A stretch of DNA of 20,225 nt from positions 1 through 20,225 of the forward strand of contig JAJJLU010004024.1 in NCBI GenBank assembly GCA_023807065.1. Direction: 5' to 3'. Below, piece after piece: positions 2,867 to 20,225 of this stretch. Below the pieces are notes generated by a model, which ran no database searches, had not been told where the DNA came from, and was given only the letters and a program-made list of their open reading frames with translations. The position numbers were made by a program, and so were the translations under genes. Source of the DNA: Isotricha intestinalis. Taxonomy: Eukaryota; Ciliophora; Litostomatea; Vestibuliferida; Isotrichidae. Position 1 is the first letter of the stretch, and every line of letters starts with the position of its first letter.

Positions 2867-3889
2867 TTACTCTAATATATTATTTTCATTATCATCTATT
2901 TTTAAAAGTGTTTTTCCTTTAGAACCTCCCTTAAGAACTTTTTGAAGAGCTTGATTGACGTCATTTAATTCAAATATTTCATCTATAGAACATTCAATTC
3001 TATTCTCTTCAAAAATTCTTGAAACTTGTGCTAATTGCTTTCCATTTGATTGAACAAATAAAAAATAATATCTTTGATTTTTTTTCTCAGCAATTTTTTC
3101 ATTACCTCTTCCAAAGCACTTAAGTATCAATTTTTTAAAGCATCCTAATCCAAATCTATCAGCAAATTCTGCATTAGGCATTCCCTTCAAAGAAATTAAT
3201 TTTCCTCCATTTTTTAATATTTTAAATTCTTTTTCCAATTCCTTGTCTCCAACTGTATCTAACACATAATCAACATCATGTAAAATTTCAGAATAATCTT
3301 GATTCTTATAATCAAAAAATTCATCTGCTCCTAATTTCATTACTCTATCTCTATTTGAACCACTTCCACTTGTAATTATTTTAAAACCTAAACTTTTACC
3401 AATAGGGATTGCCATTGCTCCAAAACTTCCTGTTCCTCCAGAAATAAAAATCCTTTCACCACTTTTAGCTTCCATTAATTCAAATGCTTGAATTGCAGTT
3501 AAAGCAGTTAAAGGAATGCAGGCAGCTTCTTTGAAACTAAGATAATTTGGAATAATTGCAATTGCTTCTTTATCAATCGCAATATATTCAGCAAATGCAC
3601 CTATTTTATTTAAAGGCATTCTACCATAGACTTTATCTCCTATTTTAAATTCAGTTACATCACTTCCTATTTTTTCAATAACTCCTGAAAATTCGTTTCC
3701 CATTACACATGGAAGATCGTAAGGGACAATAAATTTAACTTCTTCTCTAATTATCATATTATCAAGAGGATTAACACCAGCATATTTTATTTTTACAAGA
3801 ACATCGTTTTTGCCGACCTGAGGAATTTGAATTACTTTTATTTCAACATTTCCTTCCTTGTTATATTTGTTTAATATAACTGCTCTCAT
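2867..3889 (-). CDS. NADPH:quinone oxidoreductase, zinc-free MDR family
   Basis: A complete 340-residue protein of the medium-chain dehydrogenase/reductase superfamily, quinone oxidoreductase branch, whose members use NADPH to reduce quinones or activated alkenes in the cytosol. The N-terminal GroES-like domain (about 1-125) carries AGVNPLDNM (37-45), GNEFSGVIEKIG (64-75) and GDKVYGR (84-90). The Rossmann domain carries GGTGSFGAMA at 151-160. The conserved C-terminal region has KKNQRYYFLFV (269-279) and ends GGSKGKTLLKI (321-331). The Cys/His set that binds catalytic zinc in alcohol dehydrogenases is absent, as usual for this branch. Length matches bacterial homologues. The gene has no intron, is visibly less AT-rich than its surroundings, and its motifs recall the bacterial (Firmicutes-type) form, so I infer lateral acquisition. 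The ATG at 3889 gives the standard MRAVI start. A GC-rich hairpin lies 87-111 nt upstream. Confidence 0.93.
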   Translation of the reverse strand: MRAVILNKYNKEGNVEIKVIQIPQVGKNDVLVKIKYAGVNPLDNMIIREEVKFIVPYDLPCVMGNEFSGVIEKIGSDVTEFKIGDKVYGRMPLNKIGAFAEYIAIDKEAIAIIPNYLSFKEAACIPLTALTAIQAFELMEAKSGERIFISGGTGSFGAMAIPIGKSLGFKIITSGSGSNRDRVMKLGADEFFDYKNQDYSEILHDVDYVLDTVGDKELEKEFKILKNGGKLISLKGMPNAEFADRFGLGCFKKLILKCFGRGNEKIAEKKNQRYYFLFVQSNGKQLAQVSRIFEENRIECSIDEIFELNDVNQALQKVLKGGSKGKTLLKIDDNENNILE

Positions 3890-9493: not shown

Positions 9494-10249
9494 CTAATCA
9501 TCAAGATCTAAATCATCCAAACTAGGTTTCGAAAGTTCAGAATTAACACTAGAATTATCATCATCATCACTTTTATTATTTTCATTAACTTTAGCATTTT
9601 CTTTTTTATTATTATTTATATCATCTTTATTATTTATATTATCTTTAACAATATCATTATTTTTTTTATCATCATCTTTCCCATTAACTTTATTTAAATT
9701 ATTTTTATAATGTTTTTCTTTATCAATAATTAAATCTTCACTTGCAAATTTTTTGACATAATCTTTAATTTTCATATTATATTTATCAGGATCACTTTGC
9801 AATAATTTCGCAGCTTCACCATTCAAAGGATCAGAAGGATTAGGATAAAGTAATAATTGAGGTAAAAATTCATCAAATATATTAATTAAATCAAACATTG
9901 GAGACCAAGTTTGATTAATAACATCTAAGCAAATTGAACCTGATTTTTCATCAACATTAGGATGATACATTTTATTAAAAAAACCTATTGATGGTGATTT
10001 ATAAGGATATTGTTCGGGTAATAAAACATGAACTTTCCAAATTCCCTAATTAAATATTATATAATTTTAATATTTTTTATAAATTTATTTTTTTCTTACT
10101 CCTTCATAAGGAGAACCTTTTGGTCCATGAAATAATACATACATATCATTTTTATTTGTTTCGTCTGTTAAACTTACTTCGTAATTACTCATTAATAATT
10201 TCATTACATCTCTTTCTTTTCTTTTATTTTGAGTTATTTGTGCTCTCAT
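9494..10249 (-). CDS. Ubiquitin-conjugating enzyme E2, UBE2H/UBC8 type (two exons)
   Basis: Exon 1 is 10249-10100 (50 codons), the intron 10099-10046 (54 nt, GTAAG to TTAG), and exon 2 10045-9494. The spliced protein is 233 residues and restores the E2 core across the junction (GSPYEG, then [10 protein letters not shown]). It accepts ubiquitin from E1 as a thioester and passes it to substrates, usually with an E3. YHPNVDE holds the HPN motif, and the catalytic Cys is residue 89 in [13 protein letters not shown], very close to its place in UBE2[13 protein letters not shown] is also typical of this subfamily. The last 75 or so residues are a Lys/Asn/Asp-rich acidic tail; UBE2H too has an acidic C-terminus. 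The single open frame starting MYHPN is only part of the gene; its upstream exon supplies the real start MRAQIT. A stop TAG ends the tail. The E2 assignment is firm, the UBE2H subtype probable. Confidence 0.93.
10046..10099 (-). other. Spliceosomal intron in the E2 gene
   Basis: 54-nt, almost pure A/T intron bounded by GTAAGA and TTAATTAG. It lies between codons (phase 0), and its removal joins two halves of the conserved E2 fold. With the 47-nt intron of the EF-hand gene it sets the normal intron scale of this genome. Confidence 0.92.
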
Positions 10250-17575: not shown

Positions 17576-17678
17576 AAAAGAAATTATAAAAATAATTAAA
17601 ATTAAATATTTTAATAATTTTAATTGAATAAAATAAAAAATCAAATTTTAAATTATAATTTATTTTTTAAAATTATTA

Positions 17679-17749
17679 TTTCTTCAGAAAGAACATAAAA
17701 TTCTGGAGAAATGTTGTTTCTCCAACATTTTATGTTCTTTCAGGAGAAA
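17679..17749. repeat. 71-nt near-perfect inverted repeat (hairpin)
   Basis: Nested arms: TTTCTTC (17679-17685) with GGAGAAA (17743-17749, one G-T pair); GAAAGAACATAAAAT (17687-17701) with its exact complement (17727-17741); and GGAGAAA (17705-17711) with TTTCTCC (17717-17723) around a five-base loop. Small symmetric mismatches separate the three stems. It is GC-richer than its flanks. Options include a structured or hairpin-precursor RNA, a tiny foldback element, or a cruciform. Confidence 0.7.
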
Positions 17750-18779
17750 TTTTATATTTTGATTCATGTTTTAATTCTTTCTCACATCTTTGAAAACAGG
17801 AATATAGGGTTATTTTTTTAAAAAAATGAATGAAAAAAAAGAACAGAAAGAAAAATTTGAACAAATTAAAGAAGAGTATAGGGAAGAAAAGGATTATTTA
17901 ATAGTATAAAACATAATAAAGTCCAATAAAATTATTAAAACTCTATTTTTATAAATATGGCATTTATAATAATTGATTTGATATAATGAATATTATTTAA
18001 AGACATATTTGAATGCTTTTAATAATTAATATTGATGAGGATAATATTTAGATGATGATAATAATAATTAAAAATGATTTTTTGTTTGTTAAAAAAGAAA
18101 AATGACAGTAATAATATTTATTTAAATTTCATAAATAAAAAACAAAAAAGATTTTTAATAAATAAATTGATATATATCCTAAGGAATATCTTTAAAACAA
18201 AAATACAAATTTTATTTATTAAAATTAATAAAATATCATGAAAATAAAATTTGAAAATTTAGTTTTTTTTATTTATAAAAAATAATTTTGATATTAAAAA
18301 AATAATTAAATTTGTTAAAATTAATAACTTAATATATTAAATTTGTGATAAAATAAATATTTAATCTTTCAAAAAAAAATATTATATTTTATTATCCCAT
18401 AAAATATAATATTTATTTTTCTTTTAATTTTCCTATAATAAAAATGCTAAATGATTATGATATTATAATTTTATTCATAATTGTGAAATATAAATAATAA
18501 AATAATAATTGTACTTGAAGATAATTTTAAAAAAGAAAATTTAAAAAATTAATAAATAATAATCATTCATAAAAGTTTAGAGATATTTTTATATATTAAA
18601 AATCCATTTTTTTAAAGGAATTTTAATTTAATTTTAATTGATTAAAATTTTTATTAATTAATTTTAAATGTATGAATTTATTTTTTGCAAATGTTGATTC
18701 AAATCAAAGAAAATAAAATTATTTAAAAATAATATATATTTAAATATCATAATCTTCAATTAATAAATAAAAATTAAAA
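17750..18779. other. AT-rich region upstream of the micro-exon array
   Basis: One short ATG frame at 17826-17910 (27 codons, starting MNEKKEQKEKFEQIKEEY) reads like the start of a Lys/Glu-rich helix but stops at TAA; it may be a relic. The rest is A/T sequence, and 18600-18779 must hold the 5' flank of the array gene. No TATA-type element can be singled out in such composition. Confidence 0.4.
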
Positions 18780-20225
18780 ATGGAATTAAAAATAAGAGTT
18801 ATAGAAAATCCTATTGATAAATGGGAATTAAAGTAAAATAAAAATAATATTTAAGAGTATTGAATAAAATAATTTGAGTGTGTATAAATTAAAAAAAATA
18901 AAATTAGACTGTTAAAATATTTAATAATAATAATAGGAAGTATAATAAAAAAATAATAATATAAGTGTGTAAGATATTTAAATGATAAATAAGGATGTAA
19001 AAATAAAATTTAAAAATAGTATGTATAAATAAAATAATGAATAAGAAAGTAAATAGAAGAATAAAATAAGTTCGTAAATAATAAAAATAAAAAAGTGGGT
19101 AAAAAATAAATAAAAAAAGAAAGTAAATATAAAGAATTAAAAATAAAAGGGAGTAATTAAATAATTAAAAATAAATAGGAAGTAAAATATTATTAAAAAT
19201 AAAGAAAGTAAATAAAAAATAAAAATAAGGAAGTAAAAATAATAATAAATTATTAGCCAGTAATATAATATTATTAATTAATTATAGTTTGTAATATAAT
19301 ATCTTTAATTAATTATAGCAAGTAATATAATATTATTAATTAATTATAGTTTGTAATATAATATCATTAATTAATTATAGATAGTAATATAATATTAATA
19401 ATGAATTAGGGAGTAATATATATTATTAATAATGAATTATAGGAAGTAATATATATAATAATTAATTATAGGAAGTAATATAATATTAATAATGAATTAG
19501 GGAGTAATATAATATTATTAATAATGAATTATAGGAAGTAATATATATTGTTAATTAATTATAGGAAGTTATAAAATATTATTCATTAATTATAGATAGT
19601 AATATAATATCATTAATTAATTATAGATAGAAAAATAATATTATTAATTAATTATAGTGGATAAGAAAATATTATTAATTAATTATAGGGAGTAATATAA
19701 TATTATTAATTAATTATAGTGTGTAATATAATATTATTAATTAATTATAGAAAGTAATATAATATTATTAATTAATTATGGATGTAAAATAATATATTAT
19801 TAATTATAGATAGTAATATAACATTAATAATGAATTATAGGGAGTAATATAATATTATTAATAATGAATTTAGTGTGTAATATAATATTATTAATTATTT
19901 ATAGATAGTAATATAATATTATTAATTAATTATAGATTGTAATATAATATTATTATTAATTATAGGATGTAATATAATATTATTAATTAATTATAGGGAG
20001 TAATATGATATCCTTAATTAATTATAGACAGTAATATATTATTATTAATTAATTATAGGAAGTAATATTTTTTTAATTAATTATAGAGAGTAATATAGTA
20101 TCTTTTTTATTTTTGATTGTTAATTTTTTAATAATTTAAAAGTGTGTGTTTATTTCTTCTTTTATTTTAGTATGTAATATTTATTTAAATTTTTGAATGT
20201 AATTTTATTATTTATATTATAGGAT
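18780..20225 (+). CDS. Gene apparently split into single-codon exons (partial, runs off the end)
   Basis: An ATG at 18780 opens 53 coding bases (MELKIRVIENPIDKWEL plus AA). A spacer at 18833-18855 follows, then a lone A (18856) that completes Lys, then a spacer at 18857-18878. After that, triplets alternate with 21-31 nt spacers. Triplets start at 18879, 18908, 18937, 18966, 18994, 19020, 19046, 19071, 19096, 19120, 19150, 19179, 19205, 19230, 19257, 19288, 19319, 19350, 19381, 19410, 19443, 19472, 19501, 19535, 19565, 19596, 19627, 19658, 19689, 19720, 19751, 19781, 19810, 19841, 19874, 19905, 19936, 19966, 19997, 20028, 20059, 20087, 20116, 20143, 20171, 20196 and 20223. All 47 are sense codons. 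The joined protein (65 residues so far) starts its split part CTECDYKFWKGEKEP and has Cys at 19, 22, 48, 53 and 62 (a CxxC pair first) and Trp at 16, 27 and 46. Both other phases hit stops. Family not recognised. Spacers mostly run GT to AG; RNA splicing or DNA excision is inferred. Confidence 0.62.
18833..19256 (+). other. Proximal spacers 1-16: heterogeneous 21-27 nt GT-AG segments
   Basis: Sixteen A/T spacers, every one beginning GT (mostly GTAAA, GTATA or GTTAA) and ending AG (AAG or TAG). Their interiors differ in sequence and length, so they are not copies of one repeat, yet the interval between them is always exactly 3 nt after the second spacer. They are about half the length of the normal introns in this window. 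Confidence 0.75.
19260..20089 (+). repeat. Tandem ~31-nt units: conserved 28-nt spacer plus variable triplet
   Basis: Twenty-seven units (spacers 17-43). The typical spacer is 28 nt, starting GTAATATAATAT and ending TTAATTAATTATAG; a variant ends AATGAATTATAG or AATGAATTAG, and lengths range from 25 to 31 nt. Only the 3 bases between units vary freely (CCA, TTT, CAA, ATA, GGA, GAA, TGG, TGT, AAA, GAT and others). Units starting at 19630 and 19661 have lost the GT start (GAAAA, ATAAG) and the one at 19754 ends ATG, without change in the 3-nt phase. The variable-triplet/constant-spacer pattern is the reverse of what neutral minisatellite drift gives. Confidence 0.85.
20090..20222 (+). other. 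Distal spacers 44-48: T-rich 22-26 nt segments
   Basis: The homogeneous repeat stops but the triplet/spacer design continues with T-rich spacers: 20090-20115, 20119-20142, 20146-20170, 20174-20195 and 20199-20222. All begin GT; three end AG and two (20115, 20195) end TTTTTG. The intervening triplets are ATT, TGT, TAT and AAT, and the window stops exactly after the next, GAT. Confidence 0.6.

Follow-up and report, generated by a model that had tools for sequence, protein, structure and literature searches.

This analysis indicates that positions 18780–20225 of the window, by which we mean the whole stretch of 20,225 nucleotides under study, very probably hold the 5′ portion of a protein-coding gene in which 46 spacers divide the coding sequence into single codons; these spacers are likely spliceosomal introns, whose removal from the RNA would yield a small zinc-ribbon-like protein. 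Serial single-codon exons had been proposed here in an earlier note made from the letters of this DNA, and the proposal gained support: other loci spell the same amino acids and join in frame to ordinary exons, a second gene appears to have 66 such exons in a row, and the integrity of the splice sites follows the conservation of the codons.

The window is the entire contig C1460 (16% G+C) of an assembly of 57.3 Mb in 2153 contigs. Most of the array was delimited by a parser that ignores codons and scores ends resembling splice sites, the length of the spacers and that of the exons, an exon of 3 nt being favoured. The predicted features are as follows.

18780..18832, + strand: ordinary exon 1, 53 nt, MELKIRVIENPIDKWEL followed by AA, the first two bases of a Lys codon
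18833..18855, + strand: spacer (putative intron) 1, 23 nt, GT-AG, interrupting the Lys/Arg codon; codon-blind parser
18856..18856, + strand: putative 1-nt exon (A), completing AA/A = Lys; codon-blind parser and junction fits at other loci
18857..18878, + strand: spacer (putative intron) 2, 22 nt, GT-AG; codon-blind parser
18879..19259, + strand: conserved core of 15 single-codon exons, C-T-E-C-D-Y-K-F-W-K-G-E-K-E-P, with 14 GT-AG spacers of 21–27 nt; codon-by-codon alignment with 12 other loci
19260..20089, + strand: variable region with 27 single-codon exons, F Q F I G E E G E E I I W G C K D I G C I I D G T E R, and 27 often near-identical spacers of 25–31 nt; parser, last codon AGA by eye
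19630–19657, + strand: non-GT-AG spacer of the variable region, GA-AG
19661–19688, + strand: non-GT-AG spacer of the variable region, AT-AG
19754–19780, + strand: non-GT-AG spacer of the variable region, GT-TG
20090..20142, + strand: longer spacer, 53 nt, GT-AG; by eye, with a similar stretch before TGT in L010, L013 and L016
20143..20145, + strand: single-codon exon TGT (Cys); by eye, relatives as guide
20146..20170, + strand: spacer, 25 nt, GT-AG; by eye, relatives as guide
20171..20173, + strand: single-codon exon TAT (Tyr); by eye, relatives as guide
20174..20222, + strand: longer spacer, 49 nt, GT-AG; by eye, with related sequence in L010, L013, L016 and L017
20223..20225, + strand: GAT (Asp), last bases of the contig; by eye

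From 18833 to the contig end, one 1-nt exon and 45 sense triplets are set apart by 46 spacers, 43 of them GT-AG. The parser alone, from 18833 to 20086, returned 43 spacers (40 GT-AG), one 1-nt block and 41 triplets; beyond its reach, four more codons (AGA, TGT, TAT, GAT) and three GT-AG spacers, 53, 25 and 49 nt long, were read by eye. The earlier note had counted 48 spacers and 47 triplets, a difference confined to the last ~140 bases, for which relatives were consulted; its spacer range of 21–31 nt describes most of the array and gives way near the end, where relatives suggest 53 and 49 nt. As the contig stops inside the gene, the gene's 3′ end is absent from the window. The predicted translation up to the contig end is MELKIRVIENPIDKWELK-CTECDYKFWKGEKEP-(FQFIGEEGEEIIWGCKDIGCIIDGTER)-CYD, and a list of open reading frames at 80 aa holds nothing in 18780–20225.

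The sequences of the triplets strongly support coding by serial single-codon exons. In the window, the 41 parsed triplets contain no stop, an outcome with a probability of 0.0096 given their composition; both other frames meet stops; and G/C falls 19, 15 and 3 times at codon positions 1, 2 and 3 of these triplets, with 24 G/C in the 958 bases of the spacer interiors. These values bear out the earlier observations of all-sense triplets (45 overall), a single open frame and a G/C bias toward codon positions 1 and 2, together with the rough estimate of about 1% for a lack of stops by chance.

The same parse covered 43 loci, namely the window and 42 others (duplicate cut-outs L001–L008, L045, L046, L049, L051 and L052 dropped), which were picked by array and motif searches and are not a random sample. 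Taking at least 8 spacers as a chain, we obtained 29 chains in 26 of the 43 loci, with 921 spacers in total. In 28 of these chains, the codon-blind parse gave no stop in 859 triplets, where composition predicts about one per 10 triplets and shuffling of letters within triplets produced 29–59 stops (200 trials); counted across all 29 chains, stops number 37 and 116 in the two remaining frames, and G/C occupies codon positions 1, 2 and 3 in 376, 319 and 82 of 876 triplets. This stop test is independent of the motif used to choose the loci. A TAA in the minus-strand array of L019, met in a first crude scan, disappears when a 1-nt exon is allowed.

The sole exception is L025: frame 0 has 4 TGA in its 17 triplets, and one base on there is no stop.

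L025 4739–5591, − strand: gene with putative 3-nt exons read in phase 2 and a YLN repeat, the spacing staying at 3 nt despite split codons

The ordinary exon upstream of the chain has an open frame of 315 codons in phase 2 and in no other phase; the four triplets adjoining this exon (TGA TTA CTA TGA) are open in phase 2 too. About 160 irregular bases lie between two chains, and there the codon-blind parse loses the frame. A frame-aware parse, which avoids stops by construction, links the chain with the upstream exon and with an ordinary exon downstream, all in a single frame. The locus is consistent with phase-2 introns at 3-nt spacing, which falls short of proving the frame over its whole length.

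The array structure was also compared with controls. Reversed or Markov-resampled sequence of the same loci (three overlapping tubulin cut-outs omitted) gave no chain, against 29 chains and 921 spacers in the real sequence. When exon lengths of 1–15 nt were penalized equally and GT-AG was required, 213 of 216 exons, in 13 chains, were exactly 3 nt, and the reversed control again gave none; the triplets would be micro-exons in the usual sense of internal coding exons of 1–15 nt between introns. Genome-wide, three consecutive GTAA donors with 3-nt exons occur 397 times (10 for the reversed pattern), W-K-G as single codons 13 times (0 reversed), and the WE[L/I]R junction with a 1-nt exon before Cys, of the Arg type, 17 times (0 reversed). 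As 194 of the 397 three-donor matches lie inside the examined loci, about half are elsewhere in the genome; prevalence rests on these pattern counts and on loci that array or motif searches had picked. Outside the examined loci, C2, C94, C519 and C546 were seen to carry further chains, whose spacers differ in sequence. Some of the triplets listed on C2, C94 and C519, read irrespective of phase, are TGA, which counts against the codon reading. Arrays of 41 to 66 consecutive single-codon exons were found in the window, L011, L014, L017, L019 and L023.

A tandem repeat of period 31 extends over 19243–20101 within the window array, and this periodicity and the identical spacers could be expected of a non-coding minisatellite that resembles introns by chance. 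Such an explanation retains almost no probability and is already contradicted, as the three bases between spacers are poorly repeated (276 of 666 codon letters agree in units with letter-identical spacers), and the triplets lack stops and spell a recurring protein.

Concerning the encoded proteins, a recurring tail, WELR-CxxCxYxFWKGExxP-(variable)-CPxCGxG, is joined in frame to differing upstream proteins. The relatives' core variants include CTKCGYQYYNGEEEP, CTKCKYVFWMGEEKP, CTECNYEFWKGEEKP, CTNCQHQFWKGEFEP and others; the 13 loci of the core comparison were selected by the motif itself, so that part of the conservation in their columns stems from this choice. In complete copies (L017, for example), the single codons run to ..CPxCGxG and are followed by a short ordinary last exon (..KEPHE..stop). 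The tail follows Pkinase exons in L011 and L054 (2.8e-45 and 3.2e-33; the junction end of L054 is non-GT-AG), a Trypsin_2-like peptidase in L012 (1.1e-8), a protein with a weak B-box match below the cut-off in L023 (0.0043), and a short leader in other copies; a short first exon similar to that of the window (..IR.I.NP..KWEL) is also present in L009, L015, L017, L026, L048 and L053.

An intron followed by a 1-nt exon divides the Arg/Lys codon ahead of the first Cys. In a search with the first two bases fixed as AA or AG and the third free, this junction fits 13 of the 16 loci with a WE[L/I] exon end, giving AGA, AAA or AGG, always Arg or Lys, and does not fit L026, L028 and L054. The parse of L027 can be shifted by eye to a 1-nt exon G and the codon AAG, again Lys.

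A separate gene, with another protein, is predicted at one further locus.

L019 4900–6921, + strand: putative gene of three ordinary codons (ATG TCA GAA), 66 single codons and TGA after the last spacer; 67 spacers, 65 of them GT-AG

Its single-codon sequence is KYCYKCGGELKKPFVSKFKFLECDKCNVGFVEWKCSKCSEVNFTFYGDKRPTVPKYYCFHCGKFIY, and the four CxxC pairs (CYKC, CDKC, CSKC and CFHC) are what a small zinc-binding protein would show. Comparison with Pfam zinc-ribbon families stayed below the cut-offs (23.7 bits for a typed family consensus with Zn_Ribbon_1, whose cut-off is 25; best E 0.0037 for alignment members), so that the term zinc-ribbon-like is a description resting on the CxxC pairs and not an assignment of membership. 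For the tail, we infer metal-binding knuckles with a variable loop.

The earlier note had suggested searching for homologues of the predicted spliced protein, and the outcome was negative, which counts against the proposed reading of the joined protein: the protein collection gave no spliced homologue for the joined proteins searched. The L019 protein found no homologue there (the typed query had one Lys too many), the kinase-linked tail had 30 candidates, all above E 1, and an 8-row alignment, A1, whose rows were hand-joined, some partial and that of L054 one residue short, found one 36-aa protein at E 0.33. The 36-aa predicted protein (P0001, from a public 630-bp contig) begins MELKIREIKNPIDKWELR, like exon 1 of the family, and then seemingly runs into the first spacer; its contig may come from a different sample that contained a related organism. 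Scans for exact patterns in viral_contigs and genome_contigs returned 0 matches, and an intronless copy was not found in the same genome in a search without a positive control.

Removal of the spacers from the RNA by splicing is likely, as judged from their ends and their setting. GT-AG boundaries, as in U2-type introns, were found in 847 of the 921 spacers overall and in 205 of 207 in the conserved parts, and the genome encodes a spliceosome, with U6 present twice, U2, and a Prp8 domain in a 2473-aa open frame. Broken ends affect 2 of 207 spacers in the conserved parts and 60 of the 373 that make up the variable part (Fisher p 2e-10), a split set by the core motif and covering 580 of the 921 spacers, in core-motif chains. 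The rarity of broken ends where codons are conserved points to selection on GT and AG next to codons that matter, which is what their use in splicing would entail. The 74 non-GT-AG spacers (8%), 44 of which are AT-AG, count against the splicing reading. Some AT-AG spacers of the variable regions are found letter for letter at several loci, with one such spacer present 5 times over 4 loci.

The same window provided a positive control for ordinary splicing.

10046..10099, − strand: ordinary 54-nt GT-AG intron in a ubiquitin-conjugating-enzyme gene

The protein joined across this junction matches the UQ_con profile at positions 8–139 with 132.9 bits, versus 68 bits for the open reading frame from the first downstream Met alone. 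Ordinary genes have few introns: a rough gene finder predicted 102 introns in 106 genes; 14 of these introns are AT-rich and flanked by exons of at least 45 nt, and six, 28–54 nt long, are credible by eye. Since the only protein-backed ordinary intron is 54 nt long and the other candidates, judged by eye, are 28–50 nt, the array spacers would be a shorter class, a point against the splicing reading. A signature of nonsense surveillance is weak, as retained spacers contain in-frame stops in 94% of those of 3n length versus 74% of the others, a gap mostly due to the terminal TAG.

The arrays might instead be relics of genes formerly expressed and spliced, most copies of which are now silent. The overall share of non-GT-AG spacers, the many copies at contig ends and the damaged look of L009 (a stop in the core, CT*FWKG, under looser settings) and L026 (splice sites lost) would suit this explanation; however, the stop-free 859 triplets and the intact splice sites of the conserved parts would require recent selection, and we regard it as very unlikely. 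The damaged copies, and the three loci where the 1-nt exon junction does not fit, count against the splicing reading as well. Ribosome hopping has been reported for the byp elements of some yeast mitochondria, and the spacers, as short AT-rich inserts between codons, could in principle be passed over by ribosomes in the same way. This is highly improbable, as the GT and AG ends are under selection, the genome is nuclear with a spliceosome, the 1-nt exon splits a codon and the L025 spacers are in phase 2.

The earlier note had left room for a removal system at the DNA level. One rival explanation of this kind is that the spacers are internal eliminated sequences (IES) of germline DNA caught unprocessed by the assembly. 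The host is ciliate-like, ciliates delete short AT-rich DNA, and interconversion of IES and introns has been proposed in spirotrichs (PMC1805493). Telomere repeats are, however, present on the array contigs of L016, L020, L024, L025 and L028, with chains on those of L016, L020, L025 and L028 (the L024 array match gives no chain of 8), so that the arrays are not absent from telomere-capped DNA as IES are from the macronucleus. Contigs at several loci end in (ATTGGGG)n, the complement of (CCCCAAT)n; (CCCCAAT)n is reported as the telomere of the litostome ciliate Muniziella cunhai, which has a standard code (PMC11316547). The open reading frames, the ordinary intron, tubulins, U6, U2 and Prp8 fit a ciliate macronuclear genome, and the array-bearing genome is likely the working, already processed and transcribed genome of a gut-type ciliate.

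Direct-repeat pointers are likewise not apparent. Adjacent triplets, compared whole, are equal 71 times where 68.5 are expected, and the lack of excess means no triplet pointers of the IES kind (AGnnnGT type). On sequence grounds, excision at TA boundaries would be expected to leave GTAG behind as a scar at every site, and GT and AG are retained where codons are conserved. The telomere-repeat contigs and the missing pointers make removal at the RNA level the better reading of the sequence, and excision from DNA appears unlikely.

To our knowledge, dozens of consecutive 3-nt exons have no precedent. The earlier note knew of none either, and among the papers listed by searches of the open-access full-text literature (single-codon, 3-nt and 1-nt exons, rumen-ciliate genomes, intron gain; at most 20 papers per listing) there were isolated micro-exons and short ciliate introns and no gene with serial single-codon exons. 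The gene architecture would be new, with a splitting much finer than any met in these papers, while its parts, short GT-AG introns and micro-exons, are already known. 1-nt exons are described in Arabidopsis APC11 (PMC4674806) and Fusarium CYP621A (PMC12940212), and a 3-bp exon in Drosophila hth (PMC7392893); the likeness is an exon of 1 or 3 nt between introns, but one such exon per gene is described there, whereas here dozens follow serially and account for the bulk of a coding tail or for an entire small gene. Ultra-short introns are reported for Paramecium (~25 nt; median 24 nt in P. bursaria, PMC12862383) and Nyctotherus (median 23 nt) (PMC5014332, PMC2633312, PMC12862383), so that ciliates splice introns this short. 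The spacers share their length range, AT-richness and GTA...TAG ends, and differ in occurring once per codon while other genes in the loci read show few introns. Introners and introner-like elements (PMC9860276) are comparable in being near-identical introns at many sites, but the present spacers are serial at 3-nt intervals, and whole triplets on either side of them are equal no more often than expected. IES (PMC1805493) are similar short AT-rich inserts, the genome here being ciliate-like; the spacers differ from them in lying on telomere-repeat contigs, in lacking pointer repeats between adjacent triplets and in their constrained GT-AG ends.

As to the origin of the spacers, near-identical copies are found at many genomic sites, as with introners: one 28-nt spacer is present 33 times, over 10 loci, and is followed by 14 different codons. 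Within chains there are 222 letter-identical spacer pairs, in which the codon after is the same in 37 (20.6 expected). That letter-identical spacers adjoin different codons argues for copying of introns and not for duplication of units of codon plus intron, in which the codons would have been copied as well; introner-like insertion, gene conversion or strong codon diversification would fit better than simple unit duplication. The near-expected number of equal codons before and after a spacer, given above, also bears on the target-site duplication of introners. Block duplication was seen in L011, where DSWVKDLGDEE occurs twice. Core spacers across the 13 loci are about as alike at the same position (0.657) as at different positions (0.634), and the close copies L015 and L048 share spacers, with 6 differences in 196 sites.

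Based on this evidence, we propose that each spacer of 21–31 nt would be recognized as a unit, by intron definition, by an ordinary spliceosome and spliced one by one. A lost splice site would in most cases remove a single codon without shifting the frame, and the middle of the protein may therefore tolerate decay; the introns may have spread between codons as near-identical copies, by an introner-like process or gene conversion. A more tentative idea, which we hold to be possible and rather doubtful, is that intron gain places a new intron at every third base regardless of codon phase (mostly phase 0, phase 2 in L025) and yields one-residue exons, in which splice-site loss or skipping would delete single residues in frame and could create, from one gene, very many in-frame variants that differ in the length of the loop joining two metal-binding knuckles.

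If these genes are spliced as predicted, their spliceosome copes with dozens of consecutive exons of 1 and 3 nt and introns of ~21–31 nt, with no exon to define. This would set a new limit for intron definition, provide a natural substrate for studying the order and fidelity of splicing, and represent an intron gain that halts only at one codon per exon. Such genes, if real, would be missed by ordinary gene finding.

Other features were noted elsewhere in the window. About 1 kb upstream of exon 1, a strong RNA hairpin is predicted at 17674–17754 (−37.8 kcal/mol, z −6.5), and Rfam gave no match within the window. A zinc-type alcohol dehydrogenase gene at 2867–3889 on the minus strand has a G+C content of 27–28% in this 16% contig and is a candidate for acquisition from bacteria. 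At 1073–1456 on the plus strand, a BspA-like/DUF285 repeat protein is encoded within tandem repeats of ~78 bases.
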